From IMG/VR virus record IMGVR_UViG_3300024520_000328, positions 1 through 31,657 of that record: 31,657 nt of DNA; one strand, written 5' to 3'. Position numbers and translations under genes: made by a program. Positions 5,001 to 18,567 of this stretch are shown here, piece by piece. The first letter of the stretch is position 1. Each line of letters opens with the position of its first letter. This stretch comes from a virus. The notes below the pieces were generated by a model, which had not been told where the DNA came from, did not search any database, and saw only the letters and a list, made by a program, of their open reading frames with translations.

Positions 5001-7415
5001 GAGGGGGTCGCGGTTGAGGATGAGGAGTTCACGCGCCCACGCATTGACATACCCATCCTCTCCGCGTTTGATGACATTGTGGAAGTCAGGGGAAGTGGTT
5101 CCAGTACGGCTCCCTCTGAACAACGCACCCTTCTGAGACATAGACCTTTGGTGGCGGAAAGACTCATCGAAGAAGTTGCCAGCGATGTCGCGTCGGCCCT
5201 TACCGAATTTGGTGGCGAATTCATCTAGGCCATCAGCTCCAACCGCTCGGCTGATCAACCCTTTTTCATCAGATCGGCCTATCCGCCAGGCAATGTAAGA
5301 GAGGGGATGGTTGAACATGGAGTCGAGGCCAGTGACCCCCATTCGCACTTGCTCTTCCCCAACCACGCGGACTGTCCAGGCAGCGCGGAGAAGGACTAGG
5401 GACTTCCACCCACCCATCAGCCCATCCATCATGTTGGCGATAGCGCCTTGCTCTACCGCTGATTTGCGAAGAGCGGGGATGCCAGGAATAGCTTTAGCCA
5501 TTTCGTTGATTCCATCAAACATCTTGAAAGCGGGAGAGACCAGGCGGCGAACTTCGTTGGGGTCGGGAAGGGTGACGGTGCGGGAAGCGAACGCAGCTTC
5601 AAGAGGCATCTGCACGATGTCTTCAGTGGTGCCAGCAATGTCGATGGTGTTGCGGCCTAGGTGCTGGATGGGGTCGCCGGAGTGATCTACCAGAAGCTTG
5701 GCGCGGGTTTGTTCCCTAGCCCAAGCAGGAATCATCTTGTCGAGAACCTTGGATGGGCGGTCAAACTCCCCACCCATGACATTGACCCATTCTTGGAGGG
5801 CGTCAGCGGTTACATCTTCTAGCCCGATCAGGTCCCCGTCTTCGAGCTTGGCGAATCGGGACAGGATCTCATTGCGTTTGGCTGTTGGGACATTGGAGTT
5901 GAAGAGGAACGTTTGCATGTCGGTGAAACCAGTGTCGAGATCTTCAGGGTCGAGATCTACACCATGCTGGTTTTTGAACGCGCGCCTACCCCAGTATGGG
6001 TTGCGCTTCATCTTCCAACGTTTGCGGGCGATGTCGCCGGGGAGGTGCTTGGCTCCAATCCACGATGAGGGATTGGGGCCAAGACCTGGGAGGGGGTTGC
6101 GGCGGGTGCCGATGTTGCGACCGAGACCAGCAGGGGTCGGGCCGGTTTGACCGAGAAGAGTGCCAGTGCCTGCACCGGGGACATGGATGCTGGGGATGGC
6201 CCCTGGGCGGGTGCCGGTGAGAAGCAGATGGGACACTTCCGCGTCAGTGCCAGCTTCTAGGAGTTCCTGGAGATAACGGCGGTCGTTGATGCCTAGGCGA
6301 GAGGCAAGGAAGTCAATGTCTTCGGTTTCATCGCGGACAGCACGAACCAGGCGCTGACCTCGTTGTGTGCGTAGGAGATCTTCGCCGGTTTTGGGGAGGA
6401 CACCAGAACGGTAGAGGCCGCGAGCGACTAGGCCATCGGGACCAAGGACAGGACCAGTACGGAGTGCGCCACGCCCTTGAAACCGACCGATCTTGCCAAT
6501 GTCGGATGCGCCTTGGACTGTGCCTAGACCCTGAGAGACAGTCTTGGTGAACTTCATGGCTTTGGATATGGGGTCGAAGGCGACCTGGGAGCCTAGATCC
6601 ACCCCACCTGAGACAATGGAGAACGGGCGGGTGCCTGGTTCAAGGTTGAGTACTTGGCCAGCGAACACGCGGCCAGGAGAGATAGGGACACCGTTGAGTT
6701 TTAGCTGCTCAGATTCTTGTAGAAACTCTTGGGTGATTGGGCGACCAAGGTTTTTGGAAGAGAGGGCTAGGGCGTCATCGGGGGAGAAGCCTTGACCGGT
6801 GAAGAGTTCAAATTGGCGGGACCCTTCAGCCTGTTCGGAGCTGGGGAAGAAGCCAGAGCCGAGGTTGACCCGATTACCTTGGCGGGCTTCGTTGAGAGCG
6901 CGAAGTCCTATTGACTCTCCAGCTAGTTGTTCCCTGATCTGGAAGAAATTGAGGTTTTCTGCCCCTTCCGCGTCATAGATATCCGCTGCGGCAGCGCGGA
7001 AGTTACGGGCGACAGCCTCTTCCCAGACAGCATCAAAGGCAGTGAAGGCGAGCCGGGTGCCACCCTTGATGGCTGAATATGCCCGGTCAAGGATGCTTTG
7101 GTCATGGAGGGCTTCACGCTGGGCGAGAGCTTCAAGGTTGGGATCTGAAGCAGGGACTTGCGCCAACACCAATGCTTCAGCCAGCTCCATAGAGATGTTG
7201 GGGTATGCCTGGTGGATCAGTTCAAGGTTCTGTGCGTCTAACTCGCTGAACTGGCGAGACAAGGCTTCAGCACGTCGGAGCCGCTGATCATATTCATCTG
7301 ACAGGCTCTCTTGGGCGCGGATGTCAGAGATGAAGAACCCTGAGCCGAGAGGGGCATCGGAGAGGGGAGCATCAGAGAGGGGAGCATCTTCAAGAGGTCC
7401 AAATGGAACACCCAT
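2088..7415 (-). CDS. Very large virion protein (1775 aa), candidate internal/ejection protein
   Basis: I start this gene at ATG 7415, which has AGGAG five bases upstream inside the end of the preceding gene; the frame is open slightly further upstream, from 7439. Just after the start there is a short in-frame repeat (three copies of a roughly five-residue APLSD/APLED unit). The remainder is mostly soluble, mixed helical sequence without signal peptide or clear enzyme motif. Residues about 895-956 form a compact, strand-rich basic segment (EFEGVQRRGTVQGV ... FRVELDDGTRTEAFF) that resembles an SH3- or Tudor-like barrel set between flexible Pro/Gly linkers. Size and position after the portal suggest an internal, ejection or tail-associated virion protein; a tape-measure role cannot be excluded. 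I see no lysozyme or peptidase motif. Confidence 0.7.
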   Translation of the reverse strand: MGVPFGPLEDAPLSDAPLSDAPLGSGFFISDIRAQESLSDEYDQRLRRAEALSRQFSELDAQNLELIHQAYPNISMELAEALVLAQVPASDPNLEALAQREALHDQSILDRAYSAIKGGTRLAFTAFDAVWEEAVARNFRAAAADIYDAEGAENLNFFQIREQLAGESIGLRALNEARQGNRVNLGSGFFPSSEQAEGSRQFELFTGQGFSPDDALALSSKNLGRPITQEFLQESEQLKLNGVPISPGRVFAGQVLNLEPGTRPFSIVSGGVDLGSQVAFDPISKAMKFTKTVSQGLGTVQGASDIGKIGRFQGRGALRTGPVLGPDGLVARGLYRSGVLPKTGEDLLRTQRGQRLVRAVRDETEDIDFLASRLGINDRRYLQELLEAGTDAEVSHLLLTGTRPGAIPSIHVPGAGTGTLLGQTGPTPAGLGRNIGTRRNPLPGLGPNPSSWIGAKHLPGDIARKRWKMKRNPYWGRRAFKNQHGVDLDPEDLDTGFTDMQTFLFNSNVPTAKRNEILSRFAKLEDGDLIGLEDVTADALQEWVNVMGGEFDRPSKVLDKMIPAWAREQTRAKLLVDHSGDPIQHLGRNTIDIAGTTEDIVQMPLEAAFASRTVTLPDPNEVRRLVSPAFKMFDGINEMAKAIPGIPALRKSAVEQGAIANMMDGLMGGWKSLVLLRAAWTVRVVGEEQVRMGVTGLDSMFNHPLSYIAWRIGRSDEKGLISRAVGADGLDEFATKFGKGRRDIAGNFFDESFRHQRSMSQKGALFRGSRTGTTSPDFHNVIKRGEDGYVNAWARELLILNRDPLSRQYLSGQSRGQIKTWMKSTPEGQAHVRRLVGGNRGLRKASQEPDFVDWYVDNTVAKLEKSLGGDLAWRESVDEISGRTATPAGTRPAGADDLAVGTVLDLEFEGVQRRGTVQGVASHGRRNPRTRRKETVFRVELDDGTRTEAFFSDIQNLSPSFRGQTIAVPGQAAVPGTPGVPEGWNFQQMTMGDTTLRGLLTGDETIGAAAGITDFDQWESAISPGYQKLLDVLTEKAAAGIGPGAVEGNSRPFGRLIGRAGGSDAADGVVEDLFKVFMGRRTDNLSRSPAFRQFYAEEMAQLATFGDDATVQKMAKWMTDNNIGIEWLDRIKAWGNKVTGVDSSSSDEALKRLMTHVRSSYKGKAAITSIEDMDMLAKAKALDETRKLLYDLTRRSNIAELTRNIFPFGEAWIEIMGTWARLNKENFGLPARRLQQMVEGSRESGFFTQDENGREVFVYPGQGLLTNWMFGGKDKETGEEFGSELAQTQLVGNVQGLNIVSGSIIPGFGPAIQVAVNAFAKNQPNVEWLREIVTPFGEKPLESFGDVAEFALPSWMKRTLTAAGFDTELARSHSQSTMQIMGQLLREEGGGIDLPRNRYDQLLSRASDIATRLAWVRAIGSFAAPTSPTPRHLLASGQDERGNYFWWDTQTLASEFREKREKVFDNDSALAFDWFVKQYGFDPFLLSTPKTARIITTTGTAEGSEFRRQNALFFDKFPNVAYFINPDTPDTFDPGSIQRAIDDGARVGLSPEQWMMMRNQTLARNIYNNVARKFEGHDTNKAVRRYLRDVNIYLQNTYNGYTPFDPFAGIPGVPEQVAPSVQIQNFYQMLDDPQFSNLDTSPEAVKGISLYLQQRDRMIEALQGAGLTANREGTFSRADRAAPTRAHLRNVAERLITLYPDFRAVWDQVFKRELVEDESELDREIRIQGLLQTEDARRLLLFPSGKTVSRDLRQASFSRSDQPTFTPPNTLSVGN

Positions 7416-7827: not shown

Positions 7828-9675
7828 TTAGAGTTGTCCGACCGTTTGGACGCCCCCGCCTAGCCCGCCACCTTGACGGAGCTGGGACAGGACAGTGGTT
7901 ACGTCAGGAGGTGGGCCTTGGACCTGGGCGGGATCTCCACCACCGGGGCCACCCAAACCACCTTGGGCCTGCAAGAAAGCTTCCTCTTCAGGGGATAGCT
8001 CAGGCTCATCAGGGGTGAGGTACTTTTTGAGTACAGATTCAAAATCCTTGCCTTGGTTGTTAATGACTTCAGCGAGCAATGCCCTAGCTGTCGGATCTTG
8101 GTTTTGGGCATCTACTAGCAATGCCTCAAACATCGCGTCTTCGGCCTTCTTCCGCCTGATGCGTTCTCGGATCAAGGTCAGGTTCTCCAACCCGTCCAAG
8201 TTCTCCTGCATGGTTTCAACATCTATCACTTCACCCTGCATGAGTTGTAGCCCAGTGACGATCTTTTGGGGTTCATCCCAGCCAGCCATAACGCCATAGA
8301 TCCGGCGAGTGTTGTGATTGCCATTGATGTCGCGGGTGGGGATGTAGGACTCATTGAAGGGAGCGCCCTTGATGTGCCCAGACAGCGGCTTTTCCTGGTT
8401 CTTGTACAGGGTTTCATCCCACTCCAGCAGCTTGTCATCAACGCGCTGAATGCCCTTGCCGATGGCGAGCTGATATTCGGAGATTTCGAGGGAGGGGTTG
8501 AAGTCGAGCCGTTCAATTCCTCGGCCTGTTGCTGCAGTGTTGGCGGGGTTGGCTCCGTCATCTTGGACAGGGTATGAAGCGCCGATTCTCAAGTGGCGTT
8601 CAATCCGGTCGATCTGCTGGAACATCTGGAAGGGGATCTGACCAATGGGCTTGTCAACGTTGGTGCCTGGGGTGAGGAAGTTGATGGAGTTGCGACCCTT
8701 GGAGTATTGGCCTGACTCCATCTCACCCATCACGTTGGTTTCTGTAAACACCGCATCTTCAAGGGCAATCACAGACAGGACGTTGAGTTTGGCCATCATT
8801 GCCATCAAGCCCACGATCTGGTCGTACTGCCCAATGAGCTGGTCAAACACGAACCGCTTGATGAGGACGAAGCGGGGGCCAGAACGAAGAGGGTTGGGGA
8901 CGAAATCGACAACTAGTTGCTTTTCAGGGAGGACAACCCAGGTGCCGTCGCGGTCGAAGTATTCGGCTACTTGGAGGCCATTGCCGGACTGGTTGGACCA
9001 GGATTTGGTGGTGGTATTGGCAAGAAGGAGGCCACCGGATGCAGAGTCAACAGCACTGCGCGCACCCTCCATGATTGCGGCTGAATGCTTGGGGTAGAGG
9101 CGGGCGAGCGTGCGGTGGGGGACCTGGGTGATCACAGCCATGTCTTCGGGTTGGCTGTTCACTCCCCATGTACCTGGATACACGTTGAAGGGGTCGCGTA
9201 GTTCCGCGGATGGGTAGGGGAAGCCATTGGCGTCCATGCGTTCACGAATGACAAAAGCGGCATATCCATACCCAGGGACCCACCTGCCCAGTTGAGGCAT
9301 CTGTTCGTCGCGGTTGTCACCAAGGTCGTAGGCGGTGACTATGCGCTCTCGCTTCTCCGCTGATTTCCTAGCCCGCTCAGAGTCTTTGTGACCAGACGGC
9401 ATGATGCGGAGATCCGGCATCCGCCCAATCTTCTGACCAAGCCTGCGAAGGCCTGAGTCCATCAAGTTGATAGCAGGAACCATGTCGGAGGTGAGCTTGA
9501 TTCTCTCCCCCAACAACGCCTTCAATCCAGCCTCTCCACCGTTCATCAAATTCTTGGTGCGGAGGCGAGCTTTGAGAGTGGCGGAATTGATCTGGATGAG
9601 GAACTGGACGCGTTCGAGTATGTCCTGGGGGTTGCGTGAATCAGGGATAGGGAGTGCGCCTGCTGGGGCTACCAC
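7828..9675 (-). CDS. Portal protein (predicted), 615 aa
   Basis: This gene follows the large terminase directly. Its GTG start at 9675 overlaps the terminase stop (GTGGTAG), with GAGG a few bases upstream. Length, position and composition fit a phage portal: a helical N-terminus, a central mixed region with many aromatic residues (e.g. DPFNVYPGTWGVN, VPHRTLARLYP), a long stem-like helical part (residues about 280-330), and a C-terminal helical region ending in a Gly/Gln/Pro-rich tail. Portals form the dodecameric ring at the capsid vertex through which DNA enters and leaves. No catalytic motif is expected and none is seen. The call rests on gene order and general character, not on a diagnostic motif. 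Confidence 0.75.
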   Translation of the reverse strand: MVAPAGALPIPDSRNPQDILERVQFLIQINSATLKARLRTKNLMNGGEAGLKALLGERIKLTSDMVPAINLMDSGLRRLGQKIGRMPDLRIMPSGHKDSERARKSAEKRERIVTAYDLGDNRDEQMPQLGRWVPGYGYAAFVIRERMDANGFPYPSAELRDPFNVYPGTWGVNSQPEDMAVITQVPHRTLARLYPKHSAAIMEGARSAVDSASGGLLLANTTTKSWSNQSGNGLQVAEYFDRDGTWVVLPEKQLVVDFVPNPLRSGPRFVLIKRFVFDQLIGQYDQIVGLMAMMAKLNVLSVIALEDAVFTETNVMGEMESGQYSKGRNSINFLTPGTNVDKPIGQIPFQMFQQIDRIERHLRIGASYPVQDDGANPANTAATGRGIERLDFNPSLEISEYQLAIGKGIQRVDDKLLEWDETLYKNQEKPLSGHIKGAPFNESYIPTRDINGNHNTRRIYGVMAGWDEPQKIVTGLQLMQGEVIDVETMQENLDGLENLTLIRERIRRKKAEDAMFEALLVDAQNQDPTARALLAEVINNQGKDFESVLKKYLTPDEPELSPEEEAFLQAQGGLGGPGGGDPAQVQGPPPDVTTVLSQLRQGGGLGGGVQTVGQL

Positions 9676-11729
9676 GGTGCCTCATTCCAGTTGGTCCGGT
9701 CCCATCCAGAGAACGACTGCTCATACTGTACCTGCATATTGGCAGATTGCTCCTTGATTTTGCGCCTGAACACTTTGAGGGGGAACCACGCGGCCATGAC
9801 CAGATCGGATGGCATCTTGCGTCGTTTGCCTGTGGGGGTCACGTCAGAGGCGAAGTTGATGAGCTGGCGCTTGAAGACATCGGTCTTCTGCTGAGCGGAA
9901 GTGTCAGCATAGGGGAGGTTGATCTGGGAGTTTTCAAACAACGGAGCCATGGTAGTGATGCCAAAGGTGTCGTCCCATTTGGACTGAGCGGTGGTTTGAT
10001 GTTCTTCTAGATAGATCCCGTTGGAAGCTGCGTACTTTTTGACGCGAGGGTCCTTCTTGATTCCCCCATGGAACAGGTTGCGTTCGATCACCCAATGCTT
10101 GACGTTGTAGCGGTTATACCAGTCCTGCATTTGTTCAAGCGCGACCTCAATGCCTCCACCCTTTTGGTTCTCACTGTCAATCTTGTAGAGGAGTTCGTTC
10201 TTGAAATCGAAACCCCAGAGGAAGGCAGCTTGATAGCCAGTAGCTGCAGGGTCTAGGCCCGCGCAAAGGTAGAGGGAGTGGAATTGGGGGGCTTCACCGA
10301 GTTTTCTAGTCAGGTCTTGGCACTGCTCAATGGCGGGTTTCTTGAAGATCTCCATGCCTGCAGCGACGGCTTTGTTGAGGTAGACCATTTCGTATATGTG
10401 TTTGCCGCCAGTTGTGAGCGCGTTGGTTAGCCTTGACATCAACCAGCGGTAGGTCCGCATTTCAGGGAAGAGCATGCAAGCCACATGGATGTCGAAGACT
10501 TCTGGATCGAGTTCACAGGAGGAGTCGTGAGCCTCTTCAACTATCTTCTCCCAGCCGGGGTTATCGAGCAGGTGAGCGTAGAGGTCGTCAACGTGCTGCC
10601 GAGAACCGATGACAACAATGGCGGTGTGTTCTTCCTTACGGCTACCGACCGTCGTGGTCATCCAATTTCGTGTGTTTTGTCTGGACCCAGGCTGAATAGT
10701 GGACCCGTGATCCTCAATGTCATCACACACGATCAGGTCAACGTCTCGGCTGAGAATCTTGCCCCCGCGTCCTACTGCCACCATTGTTGGACTCTTTACC
10801 CCAGTGACGGTCCTGGATGCGACTGTGAACCGGGTGGATGACCAAGCCTTACCACTGCGAGATTCGGGCTTGAAGGTGCGGCCAGGGCCGAGGAAGTCAT
10901 GTACGAGGTCTTCGTTTTCATCAAGATGGTCCCTGCACGCTGATACCGCATCTTGGGCTATGTCTTCGTTGCCCCCCACCCACATGATTCGGATGTTGGG
11001 GACATGGACGATGAGCCAGACAGCGAAATGGATCATCAAGTCGGTTTTGCCATGTCTAGGTGGAGAGAGGATCTGGAGTTCACCACCGTGTTTGAGTGCT
11101 TGAAGGATTGCGGTGATCCAACTGACGTGGAAGGCAGAGGTGAAGTAGGGGTGGCCTTGGCCGGTACGGAAATACTTGTCCCTGAACTCAATGAACTGTT
11201 CAACCAACTCATCCACGTCTTTGTCTTCGAGGAAGTAGGTAAGGCCCATTGAGGACTGGGGACCTGACCATCCGCGGCGGAGCTGTTGGTCGGCCATGTC
11301 CGCTTCCCAAGTGGAGTGATAGCGGGAAATGGTGGCGTCAGTGAGGCCCATGATTTTGGCCACGTCGGTTCGTTTCAGCTCTTTGGATTTGATCTTCTCG
11401 CCAAACCCACGGCGAAGGAATTCAACATACCGGGGACCCTTGCGGCGGAGAACCCGTTCAGAGGGGACGACACCGTTGCGTTGATTCCGCATTTTCTGGC
11501 GGCGTTGGTGGAGAGCGGTGCAGTACTTGGTTTTGGGGGGAAGGACTGGATCTTCGCATCCATCCATGAGGCAGGTTGGGTAGATGCCTTTAGGTCCGTA
11601 CTTCCGCATCTCGCTGGCGATGGTGGCACAGCGAGGGGAGCAGTAAGACTTGGGTCGGCCAATGCCTGACCATTCGAACTTGTTAGTGCAGTCCGGTCCC
11701 TGACAAATGCGGATTTTGGGTGCGGGCAT
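9669..11729 (-). CDS. terL: Large terminase with N-terminal zinc fingers and HTH, 686 aa
   Basis: This is the DNA-packaging motor. Walker A is SPPRHGKT at residues about 222-229 and Walker B is DLIVCDD near residue 330, followed by a coupling-type segment (VVIGSRQHVDDLY). The C-terminal RNase H-like nuclease contributes acidic positions in AGLDPAATG (near 490), VIERN and SDLVMAAW. Unusually, the first 75 residues hold two zinc-finger-like clusters (C9/C14/C30/C34 and C53/C58/C70/H74), followed by a helix-turn-helix (TDVAKIMGLTDATISRYHS, around 120-140). No separate small terminase gene is seen nearby, so these may do its DNA-recognition job. The ATG lies two bases after the fibre stop. It has no Shine-Dalgarno, but TACCGT lies six bases upstream. 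Confidence 0.93.
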   Translation of the reverse strand: MPAPKIRICQGPDCTNKFEWSGIGRPKSYCSPRCATIASEMRKYGPKGIYPTCLMDGCEDPVLPPKTKYCTALHQRRQKMRNQRNGVVPSERVLRRKGPRYVEFLRRGFGEKIKSKELKRTDVAKIMGLTDATISRYHSTWEADMADQQLRRGWSGPQSSMGLTYFLEDKDVDELVEQFIEFRDKYFRTGQGHPYFTSAFHVSWITAILQALKHGGELQILSPPRHGKTDLMIHFAVWLIVHVPNIRIMWVGGNEDIAQDAVSACRDHLDENEDLVHDFLGPGRTFKPESRSGKAWSSTRFTVASRTVTGVKSPTMVAVGRGGKILSRDVDLIVCDDIEDHGSTIQPGSRQNTRNWMTTTVGSRKEEHTAIVVIGSRQHVDDLYAHLLDNPGWEKIVEEAHDSSCELDPEVFDIHVACMLFPEMRTYRWLMSRLTNALTTGGKHIYEMVYLNKAVAAGMEIFKKPAIEQCQDLTRKLGEAPQFHSLYLCAGLDPAATGYQAAFLWGFDFKNELLYKIDSENQKGGGIEVALEQMQDWYNRYNVKHWVIERNLFHGGIKKDPRVKKYAASNGIYLEEHQTTAQSKWDDTFGITTMAPLFENSQINLPYADTSAQQKTDVFKRQLINFASDVTPTGKRRKMPSDLVMAAWFPLKVFRRKIKEQSANMQVQYEQSFSGWDRTNWNEAPW

Positions 11730-11731
11730 GA

Positions 11732-14700
11732 TCAGACGGTAGTAGAGGAATAGTTGGCTGTGGTGATTGGGGCGGTGGATGAGGCATTGGCGGTGGTGAT
11801 GTCAGCTTTGGATTTGGTGTTGGCGTGAGTGGTGGTGGTGTATGAGGTGCGGTTGGCGTGAGTGATGATGGCGGTGAAAGGAGGGGTGGTTGGGGCAAGG
11901 CCGAAGACACCCGCGGTGGGGGTGGGGATAGTGGTGGTGGTAGCGATAGTTGCCGGGGTCAGAGTCGGCTTGACTGTGAGGGTTGGAGTCGGCGCGGTAG
12001 TTGTAGTGACGATGACTGCCGGGTTGACGAACGTGTTGAGGTTGATGACCAGCGTCGGGGTGGGGACCGTTGCCACTGGGGGACTGATGGTAGCGGGGAG
12101 GACGGTTGGAGCTTGGGTGAGGGTTGGGGTCGGGACGGCGGCGATTGCAGCGACGGTGACTGGAAGGATGGTCGGTGCAATAGTGATGGTGGGAGTTGGG
12201 ACGGCCGCGACTGGTGGTGCGATGACCGCTGGAGTTGTGGTGGCCGGGATGGACGGGGTTGGGGTCGGGACGGTGACAGTGGTAGTGATGACTGGCGGGT
12301 TGGGATGGATATGGGGGCGTGGGATGAGAGTGGTAGCGGTGATGGTGGCTGGGACAACAGTGGCACCTGCACCGACTTGAAGGCCAGGGGTGGGAACGGC
12401 GGCTATCACTTCGATTGTTACGGGCAGGACGGTTGGGGCTATCGACAGGGTTGGGGTCGGAACTGTTGCTACCGGGGGCGCGATTGTGGCCGGGGTGATG
12501 GTCGGCTTGTTGATGAAGGTAGGTGTGGGGACGGTTGCAACTGGCGGTGCAATGGTCGCGGGGAGGACGGTGGGGGCTGTGGAGATAGTTGGAGTTGGGA
12601 CCGTGACAGTTGGAGGTGCGATGGTTGCAGGGGTAGCTGTGGGCGCGATAGTCAGAGTCGGGGTAGGAACAGTTGCAGTTGGCGGGCTGATAGTTGCCGG
12701 AAGGATCGTGGGGGCAACGGTGATAGTTGGGGTAGGGAGAGTTGCAACTGGGGGCGCGATGACTGCGGGCAGGACCACCACTGCACCGATGTCGATGGTG
12801 GGTGTTGGGATGGTTGTGGTGGTGAGGATGGTTTGGGGGAGGCGGGGGATAAACGGGGTAGGGACAGCAGCGGTTGTGGTGATGACCGCGGGGGTGACTA
12901 CAACAACGCCGACCGCCGTGATGGTTGGTGTGTAGAGAGTGGTGCCGGAGGTTGGCAGGGTGATTGCCGGGTCGCCGTTTTCCTGCCACACGAACGAGGC
13001 AACTGAGTCTGTGCGGGGGAAGGTTGGTGGACCAGAACGGAAGTCGGCGGCGTAGACCCTGGTGCCTGTTCCCCGCCATCCATCACGCCAGAACTCGGCG
13101 TAGTAAATGTCGCCGGTGATGAGTTCAGCACCTTCGTTGGCACCGATTTCGTATGGCTCAGATGCCGGGTCATTGAGGGTTACGACAGCACCGAAGGGAG
13201 TCGGGTTGAAATCGTTGTTCCAGGTGATGTCGGCGGGGTCTAGGGAAGGGGATTCTGTGGAAGAGTCGATGAACCAGTCATCGGAGGAAGCACCGTCGTC
13301 GGCATCGAAGCGGAGACGCAGCCAGCGACCCACCCCATCGGTGTAGCCGGTAACTCCAGTGCCGATGTTGCGGATGATGCCGCCATCGTTGAACGTGACC
13401 TGGAAGTTGTTGCCAGAGAGGATGCGCCAGCGGAAGGAACGGTTGGCGTTGGTGGAGCCGTACCGAGCCATCAACGTCATGTTGGCGATTGGGGTCCAAT
13501 CAGGGTTGTCAATGTAGATGACAGCTTCGAAGTCACCGGTGCCAGAGCTGGGACCAGCAGATGAGTTGAGATAGTCGCCGGTTCCGTCAAGGGCAACGAA
13601 CCCGTCTTTGGAGCCGAGGGTGATGACTGCTGGGGTGACTACGACGGTCTCGCCAGCGTTGGGTGTGGGGATGGTGACAACTGGGAGAGCTATGACTGCC
13701 GGGGTGACGGTGACAGAGCTGTCTACGTTGATTGTGGGTGTGGGGACCGTGGCGACCGGTGGGGAGATTGTTGCCGGAATGATTGTGGGTTTGTTGGTGA
13801 AAGTTGGGGTAGGGACTGTGGCAGCTGGAGGGGAGATCACAGCGGGGGTGACTGTGGGCGCGACGTGAACAGTTGGAGTAGGGACCGTGGCAATTGGCGG
13901 GGAAATGGTTGCCGGGATAATGGTCGCCGGGATAGAAACGATTGGGGTGGGGATCGTTACGACTGGCAGTGGGATGACCGCGGGAGTGACGATGGTCTCA
14001 GCAGTGACCGAGATGGTGGGGGTTGGGAGAGTGGCTACCGGTGGGGAGATGGTCGCGGGTAGACGAGGGATGAACGGCTGGGGGACCGTAATGGAAGTTC
14101 CGATGGGGGTGTCGCCCTGGGGGGTAACAGTGACCACTGCTGGGGCAGCGATAGAAATGGTAAGCGCTGCCCAGGAATCAGAAACGGTTGAGGTGAAGGT
14201 ACCGGGGTTCTCAGCGGTCTGACCAGTTTGGGCATCTTCGGTCGCCATACAAACTGAGGAGTGGCCAACACCAGAACCGGAGCCGGATGTGCCGATGTCT
14301 ACCCGTTCGGTGTAGTTGGTGGGGACTCCCGTGAAGCGGTTGTCGCCCTTACCTTCCTGACCAGCAACAGCTACGAAGTCGTAGGTGACGCTGGAAGTGA
14401 GACCAGTCAGGTTCGGCGGGTCTGGAGTGGAGGAAGCACCACCGGATGTGTTGGTGGCGAGGACTGGGGTGCCGGATGTGGCGGCTCCAGAATGGGCAGT
14501 GATACCTGCCGTGACACGACCCGATCCTGTCCACGATGCCTGGTAGTTGCCCGACTCGGAAGAAGCCCGCTTCCAAGCAGCGCGCAGGGAGCCACCGGCA
14601 TAATCAACGGCTCCACCTGTGATCTCAACGAAGTCAGTTGGCCAAGTGATTGCCGAGGTGAGGGCACCCCGGTCCACCGACATGATGAGGATGTCGTCGT

Positions 14701-14776
14701 CAGCTATCCCAGCCGGTGCGGTAACGGTAACCGACGTGGTGTTCGCAGAGGCTTCGTTGGCGGACCGGAAGGCCAT
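11732..14776 (-). CDS. Tail-fibre-like protein with 23-residue Pro/Thr/Val repeats and LamG-like domain, 1014 aa
   Basis: The modular layout is visible by eye. Residues 1-220 form a Ser/Thr/Gly-rich beta domain typical of phage appendage proteins. Residues about 230-390 hold a block of near-identical 23-residue repeats built on PATISPPVATVPTPT. Residues 390-615 look like a LamG/concanavalin fold (GDYLNSSAGPSSGTGDFEAV ... WRILSGNNFQVTF ... DIYYAEFWRDG), plausibly glycan-binding. A second, longer block of the same repeats runs to about 957. The last 55 residues carry short THAN/TTAN repeats that could form a beta-helix tip. It probably forms an extended fibre or cell-surface adhesin of the virion. 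There is no Shine-Dalgarno before the ATG, but TATGCT lies seven bases upstream. Confidence 0.8.
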   Translation of the reverse strand: MAFRSANEASANTTSVTVTAPAGIADDDILIMSVDRGALTSAITWPTDFVEITGGAVDYAGGSLRAAWKRASSESGNYQASWTGSGRVTAGITAHSGAATSGTPVLATNTSGGASSTPDPPNLTGLTSSVTYDFVAVAGQEGKGDNRFTGVPTNYTERVDIGTSGSGSGVGHSSVCMATEDAQTGQTAENPGTFTSTVSDSWAALTISIAAPAVVTVTPQGDTPIGTSITVPQPFIPRLPATISPPVATLPTPTISVTAETIVTPAVIPLPVVTIPTPIVSIPATIIPATISPPIATVPTPTVHVAPTVTPAVISPPAATVPTPTFTNKPTIIPATISPPVATVPTPTINVDSSVTVTPAVIALPVVTIPTPNAGETVVVTPAVITLGSKDGFVALDGTGDYLNSSAGPSSGTGDFEAVIYIDNPDWTPIANMTLMARYGSTNANRSFRWRILSGNNFQVTFNDGGIIRNIGTGVTGYTDGVGRWLRLRFDADDGASSDDWFIDSSTESPSLDPADITWNNDFNPTPFGAVVTLNDPASEPYEIGANEGAELITGDIYYAEFWRDGWRGTGTRVYAADFRSGPPTFPRTDSVASFVWQENGDPAITLPTSGTTLYTPTITAVGVVVVTPAVITTTAAVPTPFIPRLPQTILTTTTIPTPTIDIGAVVVLPAVIAPPVATLPTPTITVAPTILPATISPPTATVPTPTLTIAPTATPATIAPPTVTVPTPTISTAPTVLPATIAPPVATVPTPTFINKPTITPATIAPPVATVPTPTLSIAPTVLPVTIEVIAAVPTPGLQVGAGATVVPATITATTLIPRPHIHPNPPVITTTVTVPTPTPSIPATTTPAVIAPPVAAVPTPTITIAPTILPVTVAAIAAVPTPTLTQAPTVLPATISPPVATVPTPTLVINLNTFVNPAVIVTTTTAPTPTLTVKPTLTPATIATTTTIPTPTAGVFGLAPTTPPFTAIITHANRTSYTTTTHANTKSKADITTANASSTAPITTANYSSTTV
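11905..12897 (-). repeat. Coding tandem repeats, second block of fibre gene (about 69-bp period)
   Basis: Roughly a dozen or more degenerate copies of a unit encoding about 23 residues with the core PATIAPPVATVPTPT. The period is a multiple of three and the DNA is biased (mostly G and T on the plus strand), so other frames on both strands are open for hundreds of codons; those are artefacts. Some copies are shortened or diverged (IAAVPTP, TTTTIPTP). Confidence 0.85.
13612..14085 (-). repeat. Coding tandem repeats, first block of fibre gene
   Basis: About seven copies of the same 23-residue Pro/Thr/Val unit as in the second block (for example PATISPPIATVPTPT), separated from that block by the LamG-like domain. 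Segments such as FTNKPTIIPATISPPVATV and FINKPTITPATIAPPVATV occur one in each block, which indicates duplication or exchange between them. Confidence 0.8.
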
Positions 14777-14879: not shown

Positions 14880-15329
14880 TCACGGGGTGTAGTCGAGCGT
14901 GAAGACTCCGGTTCCTGAATGTTGGATGGTGAAGTCAGCGGCCGTGGCGTCTGCGGCGGTCACGAAATCCTGCAAGCAGACAAGCTGGTCGGTGGCTCCG
15001 GTCCCAACGTTGGTGTAGAACACCCCAGCCATGGCGTTGGCTGAGTTGATCGTGATGTTGGAGAACACGGTATTGGCCATATCGAAGGTGAGGGTGCCGG
15101 TGGCGAGAGTTACCTCAGTGCCGGTGACAGTTACCCCACCTGCTGAATAGTTGGTGCCGGTGATTTCAGCGAGAATGTCGGCGCGGAAGTCATGGGTGTC
15201 GAAGTTGGGAACCTCGGCATCGTGGACCATCAGTTCCTTGTGGGTTTCCGCTTCGATGGACTGACCGAGCGTGTCGATCATCATCTTTTCGAGAGTGAGG
15301 CCGTACAGCCCCGCTGCAGTGACTGCCAT
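14880..15329 (-). CDS. Small virion-type protein, 149 aa
   Basis: ATG at 15329 has a strong ribosome-binding site, TAGGAGG, seven bases upstream. The protein begins with a helix (AAGLYGLTLEKMMIDTLGQS). It continues with about 110 residues of Thr/Val/Gly-rich beta sequence (GGVTVTGTEVTLATGTLTFD) and ends in LDYTP. There is no signal peptide or membrane segment. It resembles small beta-rich structural or decoration proteins found beside phage fibre genes, but I cannot name a family. It is separated from the fibre gene by a hairpin, so it may be expressed at a different level. Confidence 0.75.
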   Translation of the reverse strand: MAVTAAGLYGLTLEKMMIDTLGQSIEAETHKELMVHDAEVPNFDTHDFRADILAEITGTNYSAGGVTVTGTEVTLATGTLTFDMANTVFSNITINSANAMAGVFYTNVGTGATDQLVCLQDFVTAADATAADFTIQHSGTGVFTLDYTP

Positions 15330-15340
15330 GATTTGGCCTC

Positions 15341-15544
15341 CTATGTCTTGTGGATCTTGTATTCGGCGGCAGGTGGGAAAACGCCAACGGTGTCGCGGAG
15401 TTCCCTGGCTGTTTTGCGAGCTAGGCGAACTTCCATCCTCATCGCGTCGGTGACTGTTCCGTCAGCTTTGGCCTGGATGAAATCTTTCTCGATCTCATGC
15501 AGGGCCAGCATGACCTTATGGAATTCGACCATATTCGGATGCAA
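15341..15544 (-). CDS. Small helical protein, 67 aa
   Basis: The reading frame overlaps the upstream gene by 29 bases and ends just before the ribosome-binding site of the 149-residue gene. I prefer the TTG at 15544 because AGGA lies seven bases upstream of it; the ATG at 15532 has no visible site. The product is almost wholly helical and highly charged (EIEKDFIQAKADGTVTDAMR, then VRLARKTARELRD). Function is not recognised. It is possibly an assembly or chaperone-type partner of its neighbours. Confidence 0.6.
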   Translation of the reverse strand: MHPNMVEFHKVMLALHEIEKDFIQAKADGTVTDAMRMEVRLARKTARELRDTVGVFPPAAEYKIHKT

Positions 15545-15848
15545 TGTGGATTCCTGTCTTCTTGCGTTCGATGCCGGTGGGTCCTTGGCCTGGGACCAAT
15601 AGACCCTGGTCGATCATCTCCTGCCTTGTCTTCGGTCTGAATCTACCGGAAGAGAGGTCGAAGGTCCAGTGTATGGTCGTCGGTTGCTGGATGGCTGCGC
15701 GGCGACCGTCCCAATGGTCTTCCTGGGTGGTGGCCCCTTTGTCGGAGATTTCCCCGGTGTCGGCTATTCCCATCTGGGTGATGTTCTTCCGGTGCTTGTA
15801 GTTGGAGGGGAGGTAGAGCGTGAAGAACCGGCGCGCTGGATCATCCAT
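15516..15848 (-). CDS. Hypothetical protein, 110 aa, first gene of the left operon
   Basis: I choose ATG at 15848 (MDDPARRFFTLYLPSNYKHR). A TTG further upstream would run into the divergent gene. There is no Shine-Dalgarno; instead TACCCT lies seven bases upstream, as expected for a leaderless transcript. The protein is soluble, basic and contains many aromatic residues. The central part (DHWDGRRAAIQQPTTIHWTF) and the C-terminus (LVPGQGPTGIERKKTGIH) suggest a compact fold, but I do not recognise it. It is the first gene of the minus-strand virion block and so marks that operon's promoter. Confidence 0.65.
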   Translation of the reverse strand: MDDPARRFFTLYLPSNYKHRKNITQMGIADTGEISDKGATTQEDHWDGRRAAIQQPTTIHWTFDLSSGRFRPKTRQEMIDQGLLVPGQGPTGIERKKTGIHIASEYGRIP

Positions 15849-15881: not shown

Positions 15882-16253
15882 ATGGCTAATCAAACCCAGA
15901 AAATGAAGGTTGGGGATACAGGCCCAGCGTTTCAGGTAACTTTGAGAGACGGGGATGGGACGGCAGTGGATGTGTCGGGGTCAACGATCCTGTTCAAGAT
16001 GCGGTTTGTGCAGGGGCGGGCGTCAGGGGTGCAGGACACGCTGAAGGTGAATTCAGCGGCGACGTTGGTGGATGCGGCGAACGGAGTGGTGGAGTATCAG
16101 TGGGCGGCTGGGGACACTGATACACCAGGTAGGTATCTGGCTGAGTTTCAGGTCACGTTTGGTAGCGGGGTCATTCAAAGCTACCCGAACCCTGGGTTCA
16201 ACTGGGTAGAGGTTGACGGGGATTTGGATTACGTGGGGATTGATGGGGTCTGA
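15882..16253 (+). CDS. BppU-like baseplate upper protein N-terminal domain, 123 aa
   Basis: The ATG at 15882 starts MANQTQKMKVGDTGPAFQVT, followed by LRDGDGTAVDVSGSTILFKM. This matches the general pattern of the N-terminal immunoglobulin-like domain of phage baseplate upper proteins (BppU_N family), which attaches receptor-binding proteins or other appendages to the baseplate. Here the domain stands alone at about 120 residues and lacks the long C-terminal extension usual for BppU. The rest is beta-rich (GRYLAEFQVTFGSGVIQSYP). The start lacks a Shine-Dalgarno, and TAGAGT sits six bases upstream. The end overlaps the sulfotransferase gene by 11 bases, so the two are co-translated. Confidence 0.75.
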   Translation: MANQTQKMKVGDTGPAFQVTLRDGDGTAVDVSGSTILFKMRFVQGRASGVQDTLKVNSAATLVDAANGVVEYQWAAGDTDTPGRYLAEFQVTFGSGVIQSYPNPGFNWVEVDGDLDYVGIDGV

Positions 16254-16953
16254 CACGCGGCTGGGTTATGGGAAGGGGAGAGATGGATATACGGATCTCA
16301 CGCTCGCGCCAATCACCGCTCAGGTCGCTTCTGAAGGTCCTGGGTTTGTGGTTGCTGGGAGCGGTCGTAGTGGCTCGACTTACATCAGCCATGTCTTACA
16401 GAAGGTGGGGATCAGGTGCGGGCATGAGGAGTGGTTCACCCCCTTCATCCATCGGCGGGTGGTCGGCATCCACGGGGACAGCTCCTGGATGTGTGTACCA
16501 GTCCTGGACCACTACCACGGGAAGATCTTCGTACAGGCCCGACACCCATTCAGGGTGGTAGGGAGTCTGGCGAGTTATGACCATGGTGGGTTCATGCGGG
16601 GGGATCTGGAAGACTCGGTGTTCTGGCGGCTGAAGTGTGATGCGCTGCCGATATTGAAACTGCGCAAGGATGCCGTGTACAACTCGGTGCTGTGGTATCT
16701 GGCGGTGTATGAGCGGGCGCTGAGGTTTGCCGACATGTGGTGGCGGGTGGAGGACCTGACACCGGAGTTGCTGCAGTCGGTTACTGAGTCGATTGGTCGG
16801 CCCGCGTCATTGGAAGACTGTCAGTTGGCTATCAAGGGAACTGGGAAGCGGGTTCACGCGCACCATCAGGGGACGCGGGATATCAGTTGGGCGGATATCC
16901 CTGAACCGCTGCATGACCGGCTGGGTGCATTGATGGAGCAACTGGGCTACTAA
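16243..16953 (+). CDS. Sulfotransferase-family protein, 236 aa
   Basis: The P-loop-like 5'-phosphosulfate-binding motif is GSGRSGSTYIS at residues 39-49. The 3'-phosphate-binding motif is RHPFRVVGSL, with R100 and S108. These are the two signatures of PAPS-dependent sulfotransferases, which move a sulfuryl group to a sugar, lipid or tyrosine. The length is typical of short bacterial or viral members. The acceptor is unknown. I start at ATG 16243, which overlaps the BppU gene end by 11 bases; a TTG at 16213 is also in frame. The coupling to a baseplate-type gene suggests modification of virion or host-surface glycans, but that is inference. The stop overlaps the convergent gene by four bases. 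Confidence 0.85.
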   Translation: MGSDTRLGYGKGRDGYTDLTLAPITAQVASEGPGFVVAGSGRSGSTYISHVLQKVGIRCGHEEWFTPFIHRRVVGIHGDSSWMCVPVLDHYHGKIFVQARHPFRVVGSLASYDHGGFMRGDLEDSVFWRLKCDALPILKLRKDAVYNSVLWYLAVYERALRFADMWWRVEDLTPELLQSVTESIGRPASLEDCQLAIKGTGKRVHAHHQGTRDISWADIPEPLHDRLGALMEQLGY

Positions 16954-17249
16954 GCCGGGCACTGCTCATCATGCATCTCGGTCAGCTTGTCTTCTGCTGC
17001 CTTGTACTTGTCCATCTCTCGCAGAGTTTCAGGCATGTGCCAATCAACCGTTTCGACAACCCGGCCATCCTTCAACACGATCTGTGGATTGATCCCATAA
17101 TCGTGCGTGTATTCGGAGTAGCAACCGACCCATGGCTCGAATCGAATCGTCTCCACGTCATCAAACGTGTAGTTGTACGATTTGCCGTATCGGTCAGCGG
17201 CCCATTTAGCGACAAGCGTGTCAGCGTGGTTCATCAGTTGTCCATTCAA
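16950..17249 (-). CDS. Hypothetical protein, 94-99 aa
   Basis: This is the last gene of the minus-strand cassette, directly downstream of the vWA gene. The frame can start at TTG 17249, immediately after the vWA stop, or at ATG 17234. Neither has a clear ribosome-binding site, so translation is probably coupled. The product has a basic, aromatic N-terminal half (KWAADRYGKSYNYTFDDVET), a WVGCYSEYTHDYG stretch and an acidic helical C-terminus. Family not recognised. Its stop overlaps the stop of the convergent sulfotransferase gene by four bases. Confidence 0.6.
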   Translation of the reverse strand: MNGQLMNHADTLVAKWAADRYGKSYNYTFDDVETIRFEPWVGCYSEYTHDYGINPQIVLKDGRVVETVDWHMPETLREMDKYKAAEDKLTEMHDEQCPA

Positions 17250-17882
17250 TCAGCTGGGGGACACATCCCCGGACTCATCTACAACCGTGTGAGAAACCTG
17301 CTGGGCACCGGTTTCGCGGTAGGACGAAACGGCAGTTGTCATTGAATCAGCCACTGCCCTGGTCGATGCACCAGTTGATGCGAACGTGTAGGTGGACCCA
17401 GCCATGATGCCCAAGTCCACTGCCGTTGCATAGGCGTCTTGGTCAGCACCAAGGAACACGAACTGCCAGCCTTTGTCCTCCCGCTTCTTGATCAGCTTCT
17501 TGATGTCCTTGTTGGTGAACTCCTTGCTCGCGTTCTCATACCCATCAGTGATGATCACCACAACTGAGAGCTGACCCTTCTTCGGCTTGACGCGCGGGAG
17601 GACATAACCGATCGCATCGTGGAGGGGGGTCCTCCCGCGGGGGTCGAACGGGGCATCGGTCGAACCCAGCTTGGGAACGTTCCTGCCCTTCTTGCCTGAA
17701 TACACCAACTCATGCGGGTCTTGGCCGTCGAACTGGTACATGGTCCAGCGGGTTTTGCCGGGTGTCTTCCGCTGCGCCTTGATGAATTCGTTGAACCCAC
17801 CAATCATGTCGGCGCGGATATTGGTCATTGAACCTGACCGATCCAGGATGGTGGTTATCAGCGTTGGGCGGTTACTTGCCAT
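17250..17882 (-). CDS. von Willebrand factor A (vWA) domain protein, 210 aa
   Basis: The metal-ion-dependent adhesion site is complete: D14-R-S16-G-S18 near the start, T85 in RTPLHD, and D113 in VVVIITDGYEN. Strands and helices alternate as in the Rossmann-like vWA fold. The length covers one domain plus a short Ser/Thr-rich tail. There is no signal peptide or membrane anchor, so it acts inside the cell or is carried in the virion. vWA proteins bind partner proteins through a metal ion, and those in phages mostly have no assigned role. The ATG at 17882 overlaps the upstream RHH-like gene by 11 bases. The following small gene may be its partner. Confidence 0.85.
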   Translation of the reverse strand: MASNRPTLITTILDRSGSMTNIRADMIGGFNEFIKAQRKTPGKTRWTMYQFDGQDPHELVYSGKKGRNVPKLGSTDAPFDPRGRTPLHDAIGYVLPRVKPKKGQLSVVVIITDGYENASKEFTNKDIKKLIKKREDKGWQFVFLGADQDAYATAVDLGIMAGSTYTFASTGASTRAVADSMTTAVSSYRETGAQQVSHTVVDESGDVSPS

Positions 17883-18075
17883 ATTGTCTCATCACTTTCC
17901 TATGTCGTTCCATCTGTGTACGAAGCGCCTTCCCCACTTCCGGCTTCTGCAGCCATAGCTCCAGCGCGTCATTGACCACATCGTTGACAGACAGATCTAG
18001 GGCGGTGGCCGCGAGAGATACTGCCGTGTAGGTTGAGTCAGCGATGCGGTAGGTGGATGTGTGGCGTGGTGTCAT
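17872..18075 (-). CDS. Small ribbon-helix-helix-like protein, 67 aa
   Basis: One strand (TSTYRIADSTYTAV) is followed by two helices (SLAATALDLSVNDVVNDALE and ELWLQKPEVGKALRTQMERH), the general pattern of RHH or antitoxin-type DNA-binding proteins. Residues SVNDVVNDALELWL fit the second helix well. The ATG at 18075 lacks a Shine-Dalgarno but lies six bases after a good -10 box. It overlaps the vWA gene by 11 bases and may repress its own cassette. An alternative is a structural partner of the vWA protein. Confidence 0.6.
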   Translation of the reverse strand: MTPRHTSTYRIADSTYTAVSLAATALDLSVNDVVNDALELWLQKPEVGKALRTQMERHRKVMRQYGK

Positions 18076-18081
18076 GGTTAG

Positions 18082-18109
18082 ATGGTAGCATGGTAGAGAG
18101 AAGAGTCAA
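18082..18109 (-). promoter_or_regulatory. Promoter of the RHH-vWA cassette
   Basis: On the minus strand a -35 TTGACT (18104-18109) is followed after 16 bases by TACCAT (18082-18087), which ends six bases before the ATG of the RHH-like gene. A second copy of TACCAT lies eight bases upstream. This geometry predicts a leaderless mRNA. Confidence 0.6.
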
Positions 18110-18267
18110 GAGGGGATTTACCAGTATTTCGGTTGGGTCCCCTCCGGCCTAGGGACATGTGGCCCCCCCCAACTTGGGATGGGCGGGTTAGGACATCAGC
18201 GGATCACGCTCGCGGAGGGTCGCGGCGTCGTCGCGCTGAGTTATTTGGTTGTGGGCTAGCTCCCCGG

Positions 18268-18510
18268 CTAGAAGTTCTCTCCTCTCACTACTTCGATCGT
18301 GCGCCCTAGATCGTGGATCTTCTCAGTGGTCGTTGCGTTGATGGCATAGCCGTTATCCCGCGATGCCCATGACCTGTCAGTCGTGTAGCCCTCCTCTTCC
18401 AGGTCATCCGCGAGTTCATTGGCATAGCTCACGGCATCTGTGTACTCGGCAAACTCGGCAGGCTCGCTGTCTGGCATGTAACCGGGTGTGTTCTCGATGA
18501 CTAGGTACAT
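18268..18510 (-). CDS. Small acidic protein of unknown function, 80 aa
   Basis: I start at ATG 18510 (MYLVIENTPGYMPDSEPAEF), with AAAGGG upstream. The product is strongly acidic in the middle (ELADDLEEEGYTTDRSW) and resembles small 'ENTPGY' proteins I associate with actinobacterial phages; function unknown. It has a promoter of its own immediately upstream. Just past the stop, CTAGC-CGGGGA-GCTAG (18254-18269) forms a short 5-bp hairpin. The following 158 bases (18110-18267) up to the next promoter hold no gene I can support. No tRNA is visible there. Confidence 0.7.
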   Translation of the reverse strand: MYLVIENTPGYMPDSEPAEFAEYTDAVSYANELADDLEEEGYTTDRSWASRDNGYAINATTTEKIHDLGRTIEVVRGENF

Positions 18511-18538
18511 GGTTTGCCCTTTCGTGGCGTCTGTCACA

Positions 18539-18567
18539 AGTATCCCACACTCAGCTTCCCGCGTCAA
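18539..18567 (-). promoter_or_regulatory. Promoter of the 80-aa acidic protein gene
   Basis: On the minus strand TTGACG (18562-18567) and GATACT (18539-18544) are separated by 17 bases, close to the sigma-70 ideal. The predicted start is about 20-25 bases upstream of the ATG at 18510, leaving room for the AAAGGG ribosome-binding site. It faces away from the repeat-rich control region. Confidence 0.6.

Follow-up and report, generated by a model that had tools for sequence, protein, structure and literature searches.

The closest described systems to the locus analyzed here are the PAPS-dependent sulfotransferases (Sulfotransfer_1/3, Stf0, the CurM domain, TPST and SULT), the N-terminal domain of BppU from the lactococcal TP901-1 baseplate (PF10651), and the phage-made glycosylation of virions described for mycobacteriophages Che8, Corndog and Myrna (Freeman et al. 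2023, cited in PMC12363180). Sulfotransferases of phages are already known from annotation; what they do "remains unclear" according to a 2023 paper (PMC10580990), and no report of virion sulfation was found in the titles and abstract openings of the literature matches listed. The sulfotransferase (ST) encoded at this locus resembles the PAPS-dependent enzymes in predicted fold, 5'-phosphosulfate-binding (5'-PSB) loop and 3'-phosphate-binding (3'-PB) motif, but scores below the Pfam cut-off and has a G-H-E (GHE) motif common to its set, which was selected by a pattern that includes it. The protein encoded by the gene that it overlaps resembles the BppU N-terminal domain, a domain of about 100 aa, but stands alone, without the further parts of TP901-1 BppU. 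As in phage virion glycosylation, the ST family would comprise phage-encoded enzymes that modify surfaces, and the STs of some relatives adjoin capsid genes; unlike Che8, Corndog and Myrna, the phage studied here would add sulfate rather than sugar and has no PF00535 or PF13692 glycosyltransferase. The fold itself is ordinary, the neighbourhood less so.

The window (the whole stretch of DNA that was analyzed) is the 31,657-bp virus record IMGVR_UViG_3300024520_000328, of which 16,708 bp are 99.994% identical to part of IMGVR_UViG_3300024518_003403 (G001; 49,407 bp), and the wider context of the phage was taken from this longer contig. Comparisons were made with a distant relative of the whole phage, G045 (IMGVR_UViG_3300031772_000062, 45,174 bp), and with 79 other loci of the terminase large subunit (TerL; 45-51% identity), only 16 of which extend at least 5.3 kb upstream of TerL. 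The stand-alone BppU_N-like protein (123 aa; 15882..16253, + strand; ATG at 15882, stop at 16251-16253) and the ST (236 aa, of the GHE branch and PAPS-dependent type; 16243..16953, + strand; ATG at 16243, stop at 16951-16953) are encoded by ORFs that overlap by 11 bp. The ORFs taken as genes flanking the pair (14880-15848 and 16950-18567) lie on the - strand, as does TerL (9669..11729; phrog_38, 1.1e-55; 41% identity to G045), so that the overlap and the opposite orientation described in the first-pass annotation both hold. The pair points away from the virion genes, which places it outside their transcript. The ST stop (16953) overlaps the stop of the convergent ORF (16950), and the BppU-like start lies 33 bp from the likely ATG (15848) of a divergent gene. 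No terminator-like site was reported for either end of the pair; between 14800 and 18700, five promoter-like and three terminator-like matches were found, all weak (shuffle means 1.6 and 2.6). Beyond the ST, a VWA-domain protein (17250-18075, - strand; phrog_7371, 6.7e-60) adjoins an Arc-like repressor (phrog_6506), and relatives of this VWA protein are present in many actinophages.

On the other side of the pair, reading away from it on the - strand, the divergent gene (15516..15848) encodes a 110-aa protein that matches G045 by phmmer (7.6e-10, 28% identity), where the homologous gene directly follows the ST. It is succeeded by a 67-aa ORF (15341..15544) for which no relatives were found in the 79 TerL loci or G045, and by a 149-aa phrog_644 protein (14880..15329; 9.4e-18), which is 50% identical to G045 718-1173 and 60-67% identical to proteins of three high-GC contigs (L176-L178). 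No ST or BppU profile match was found in L176-L178 in the stretches examined; a 268-aa protein of L177 (9976-10779), taken by eye for an Ig/BppU-type domain fused to a connector, gave no match to the BppU profile and was dropped. The next gene (11732..14776, - strand) encodes a repeat protein of 1014 aa, rich in Thr (19.5%) and Pro (13.6%) and with 15 Tyr, in which VPTPT/ATISPP-like units recur. It gave no PHROG match and, in Pfam, nothing below 0.14; by composition it is a candidate fibre or decoration protein and a candidate substrate. TerL is followed by a probable portal protein (7828..9675, - strand; 47% identity to G045), which has a homologue in 77 of the 79 TerL loci, no PHROG or Pfam match at E <= 0.01, and a name drawn from its length and its place beside TerL.

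Members of the ST family were collected with a degenerate DNA pattern, used in two versions, that comprised the P-loop and the downstream G-H-E. The two versions matched 7 and 56 viral stretches, the window's phage being found by both, and the pattern matched 16 stretches in genomes. In an alignment of 53 members, which left out 6 of the 58 ST references, G39, G41, R42, G44, G60, H61, E62, R100 and P102 are invariant (53/53), an invariance that is partly due to selection since the pattern demanded the P-loop and GHE; R100 and P102 lie outside the pattern, as does S108, which is retained in 52 of 53. The window ST keeps all of these residues, in the 5'-phosphosulfate-binding loop GSGRSGST with the G-H-E motif (residues 39-62; 16357..16428, + strand; pattern match) and in the 3'-phosphate-binding motif RHPFRVVGS (R100, P102, S108; 16540..16566, + strand; family alignment), which bears out the earlier reading that both PAPS-binding motifs are intact. 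AF2 modelling with the 53-member alignment gave a pLDDT of 88 and a pTM of 0.86 (pLDDT 35 from the single sequence), and all 50 PDB matches listed by VIA-align for this model are sulfotransferases, many with PAP or PAPS bound, at Z 10.8-13.1 (13.1 to the CurM ST, the best, and 12.3 to TPST1). The listed entries include Teg12 and Teg14, which we take to be sulfotransferases. A family profile searched against the PDB found sulfotransferases at 1.9e-5 and 5e-5. Predicted fold and profile thus support the identification of the window protein as a sulfotransferase, as the first-pass annotation had it, and we infer that it would transfer sulfate from PAPS, presumed to come from the host. Glu62 of the GHE motif is presumably the catalytic base, by comparison with TPST and Stf0, the correspondence with the catalytic Glu of TPST being our assumption. 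A relation to TPST in particular was considered from this Glu (53/53) and from the fold (Z about 12), and was dropped because the Z values are tied with those of SULT and CurM.

Departures from the family consensus were also noted: position 45 is Ser in the window ST but Thr in 52 of 53 members, position 156 is Tyr against Asn in 48 of 53, and the window ST sits on a long branch of the tree. These substitutions at near-invariant positions, together with the branch, would suit a sulfotransferase fold whose activity has been lost or changed. We regard this as improbable, since the window ST has kept S108 and every one of the nine invariant residues, the change from Thr to Ser at position 45 is conservative, and two assemblies carry the same gene sequence with its frame unbroken.

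The family gave few matches in the standard searches. The window ST reached 12.7 bits against Pfam Sulphotransf (cut-off 22) and E 0.089 against Stf0; it had no PHROG match at E <= 0.01 (best 0.22) and no NCBIfam match at E <= 0.1, and it is not among the 34 of 53 members that match Sulfotransfer_3 at E <= 0.1. Foldseek returned nothing at E <= 0.001, the best PDB match being a SULT at 1.3e-3, and phmmer searches of the PDB with the ST or its P-loop segment found no sulfotransferase, so that only the family profile succeeded. By tblastn, the window ST found nothing credible in 50,697 phage records (best E 5) and only noise in plasmids; with four other members included, the five queries gave one match at E <= 0.01 in the phage records, Phage C48C1 (1e-5). 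As members are mostly below Pfam cut-offs, lack PHROG and NCBIfam names and are barely found by tblastn, the family is easily overlooked. The nearest sequences to the window ST by BLAST (28-34% identical) are L075 (from an Actinomycetota MAG), L026, L077 (from a WOR-3 MAG), L037, L067 and L079.

The BppU-like protein scores 19.7 bits against PF10651 (cut-off 23.1; E 7.6e-4) and 5.8e-7 against phrog_1627, and six closer homologues are 32-44% identical to it: Roseobacter phage CRP-6 gp56, HRTV-25 gp8, HGTV-1 gp6, and proteins of Bacillus phage vB_BhaS-171 and of viral contigs L004 and L005, the L004 homologue (44%) exceeding the PF10651 cut-off. The homologue in vB_BhaS-171 forms the start of a lipase protein in the tail module, and those in L004 and L005 form the start of longer ORFs. 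CRP-6 gp56 (107 aa) stands alone beside an S78-type protease gene, with the capsid gene four genes further; the gene for HRTV-25 gp8 (112 aa) comes after that for a laminin-G protein and precedes the terminase by two genes; and the HGTV-1 gene lies between the terminase and portal genes. As all three stand-alone homologues in isolated phages are encoded amid TerL, portal, protease or capsid genes, the term "baseplate" is doubtful; the resemblance to BppU proposed in the first-pass annotation stands on the six homologues, below the PF10651 cut-off, and its baseplate assignment would fit these head and packaging modules poorly. The window gene also lacks baseplate surroundings: its product, of 123 aa only, has no part for anchoring a receptor-binding protein, it is flanked by the ST and 110-aa genes with no recognised Dit, Tal or RBP gene as neighbour, and the nearest recognised virion gene is TerL, some neighbours having no assigned function. 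Rings of BppU_N are likened to collar or neck structures in a passage of PMC10747895, and this likeness makes a neck or head anchor possible for the window protein. Two genes from the BppU-like gene of CRP-6, gp58 (L168:945-2714) is a PLOD-type glycosyltransferase with a GT25 match and a weak 2OG-Fe(II) oxygenase match.

Pairing of the two genes across relatives was assessed from both sides. None of the six loci with closer BppU homologues had an ST-profile match at E <= 10, and among the 48 ST loci searched, many of which are fragments, PF10651 matched in 3 and beside the ST in none: the G045 match exceeds the cut-off and is 5.3 kb away from its ST, and those of G015 (about 100 kb away) and G017 (about 22 kb away) are weak. 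Conservation of the pair, which the first-pass annotation had put forward for checking, thus appears in G045, where both genes are part of one cassette, and in neither of the two sets as an adjacent pair, and a tight coupling is not general in these sequences. By the refuting condition that the first-pass annotation had set, the six BppU loci with no ST of this family count in part against it, and the G045 cassette speaks against a full refutation. The lack of an adjacent BppU gene (0/48) would suit a passenger gene with an unrelated use (a small molecule, a lipid, a DNA base or other), whose insertion into a variable stretch before the terminase would have produced the overlap with the BppU-like gene as a side effect. 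Such an account is in line with the ten ORFs of the window between 11732 and 18567, none of which was found in the 79 TerL loci (16 of them with 5.3 kb or more upstream), where the ST profile found nothing either, and with a phage sulfotransferase-based nucleotide modification mentioned in PMC10829341 (from Iyer et al. 2013). No DNA-modification enzymes were seen among the scanned proteins near the ST, and four genes accompany the ST in G045 (the 110-aa, phrog_644, repeat-protein and BppU-like genes), which random insertion would not lead one to expect; we consider a passenger gene unlikely.

G045 is related to the window phage well beyond this cassette: phmmer found homologues there (E <= 1e-3) for 14 of the 60 ORFs on the longer window contig, including TerL (2.5e-137), the probable portal (1.7e-171), capsid, tail and others. 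In G045 the ST, fused to a GT2-like domain, is followed in turn by the homologues of the 110-aa and phrog_644 proteins, by a repeat protein of 1468 aa and by a BppU-like gene that stands alone (24.3 bits against PF10651), all within about 6 kb; the ST frame spans the record ends and is 554 codons without a stop when joined. Compared with this cassette, the window has the ST and BppU-like genes inverted, no GT domain and a repeat protein of different sequence, and the two BppU-like proteins match each other weakly (4.2e-5, with G045 as the only record searched). In the tree the G045 ST groups with that of L037 (93/97) and not with the window ST, but a single clade of the window and G045 STs is not rejected (p-AU 0.31), so that common descent and repeated acquisition are both possible.

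The genes beside the ST in other genomes were compared with random expectation. Of the 48 ST loci, 45 viral records other than the window's were used, leaving out L048, L051 (partial ST) and L056, which nearly duplicates L031, and one ST was counted per record (G030 and G045 have a second match). In 28 of the 45 the ST has a GT2, GT4 or Methyltransf_23 match no more than 2.5 kb away (random mean 11.3, maximum 19), and in 21 a GT2 or GT4 match (random mean 9.4, maximum 20), counts that include matches below the Pfam cut-off and GT domains inside ST fusions and in which short records inflate chance; among the 40 that are at least 12 kb long, the count was 24 against a random mean of 7.6 and maximum of 16. 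Random expectation was taken from 2000 uniform placements, which ignore the clustering of accessory genes. Near the ST (up to 2.5 kb), the Pfam tally covered 149 ORFs of 29 loci (30 of 179 neighbour ORFs, from 12 loci, were left out), and the best 25 of 82 families included Methyltransf_23 (7), Glycos_transf_2 (6), Glyco_trans_1_4 (6) and Phage_capsid (5). The far set, 81 ORFs lying beyond 3.5 kb from the ST and drawn from 20 of those 29 loci, included Phage_capsid (2), TET-associated glycosyltransferase (1) and Sulfotransfer_3 (1), with none of Methyltransf_23, Glycos_transf_2 and Glyco_trans_1_4 among the 25 of 26 families listed. Near and far tallies together point to an enrichment of sugar and methyl transfer near the ST, and to none of capsid genes.

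In individual loci the ST is found among both kinds of genes. L061 has the order scaffold-MCP-ST-GT4-adaptor (MCP and GT4 confirmed by Pfam; scaffold and adaptor by eye) and L067 the order portal-protease-MCP-ST-(355 aa)-connector (MCP and connector confirmed by Pfam; portal and protease by eye); TerL lies 2 kb from the ST in L038, a GT4 gene is beside it in L052 and a DXD sugar transferase gene in L020. Fusions of phage STs to glycosyltransferases involve different GT types and both domain orders, with a clear ST-GT4 fusion in L008 (8191-10152) and weak GT2-like domains in L058 (11195-12460) and L030 (832-2154). A 1047-aa protein of a bacterial MAG (L070:3389-6529, - strand) combines a GHE ST, TPR repeats and a GT41 glycosyltransferase domain, which we take to be of the SPINDLY/OGT type. 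Two neighbours of the ST in L026 and the 355-aa protein of L067 (5883-6950) were taken for glycosyltransferases by eye and had no GT match in Pfam; the latter has a C-terminal Lsr2 DNA-binding domain (PF23359, 3.9e-11).

Glycosyltransferase and methyltransferase neighbours suit the tailoring of any glycan, and the ST might instead sulfate a glycan of the host-cell surface, changing a receptor so that other phages are excluded or release is aided, with the BppU-like neighbour incidental. The surroundings of L077, which is among the two closest bacterial relatives, resemble by eye a polysaccharide cluster (one of the six bacterial loci viewed), and a two-gene unit opposite to the virion genes is often seen with accessory genes. 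In L061 and L067, however, the ST directly follows the capsid gene, before a GT4 gene or a connector gene, respectively, and no genes for PAPS or sugar supply were seen among the scanned proteins, which are part of the window's ORFs. A host glycan as the target seems rather unlikely to us, somewhat less so than a passenger gene.

The explanation that we prefer, tentatively and with confidence somewhat short of even, is that the phage encodes a PAPS-dependent sulfotransferase whose target is a fibre or decoration on the surface of the phage itself. The enzyme would probably be translated together with the BppU_N-like protein, a putative stand-alone anchor, and would hold host PAPS with GSGRSGST and RHPFRVVGS and, with Glu62 of GHE as the base, pass sulfate to a hydroxyl. 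Its likeliest acceptor would be a surface fibre or decoration made from the neighbouring genes, namely those for the BppU-like anchor, the 110-aa protein, the phrog_644 protein and the 1014-aa repeat protein, of which the last, judged by its Thr/Pro-rich sequence, is the most attractive candidate for carrying an O-linked sugar. The 49-kb contig has no match to PF00535, PF13692 or PF13489 (GT2, GT4 and Methyltransf_23), hence no partner enzyme from those three families; since neither of the two glycosyltransferase families searched is represented, the sugar that is sulfated must be assumed to be added by an enzyme of the host or by one that went unrecognised, or else the sulfate would go straight onto a side chain. 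Of the targets named in the first-pass annotation (virion, host-surface glycan or small molecule), a glycan or protein-linked sugar is favoured by the company of the family, and the lack of these three families in the window contig counts against it.

Modification of the phage's own surface is favoured by the predicted fold and intact motifs, the gene row of G045, GT and methyltransferase neighbours beyond random placement, the GT-ST fusions, the placement of the ST after the capsid gene in L061 (followed by GT4) and L067 and near TerL in L038, and the polysaccharide-like surroundings of the L077 kin (by eye). It is also in keeping with the phage glycosyltransferases that, by the account in PMC12363180, glycosylate virions. 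Against it stand the missing GT or methyltransferase partner, the opposite orientation, Ser45 and Tyr156 with the long branch, the separate grouping of the window and G045 STs, the weak BppU match, the six BppU loci of six without an ST, the capsid genes that are not enriched near the ST, the glycosyltransferase and the sulfotransferase of the far set, and a placement statistic that ignores accessory clustering and counts matches below the Pfam cut-off.

More broadly, several phage lineages may sulfate their own particles, a GHE ST, alone or fused to a GT, acting on glycans of head fibres or decorations that BppU_N-like proteins anchor to the head or neck, so that the virions would be sulfated; this we hold to be doubtful. 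If it were so, sulfated surface glycans would alter particle charge, adsorption and recognition, and the neighbourhood statistics, the GT fusions and the two examples of an ST after the capsid gene make it a testable question whether some virions are sulfated. L037, the locus whose ST groups with that of G045, has an extra N-terminal part with no Pfam match that is similar by eye to that of L058, and it encodes two family sulfotransferases (3430-4122 and 5889-6518) with an epimerase-like gene, recognised by eye, in between.
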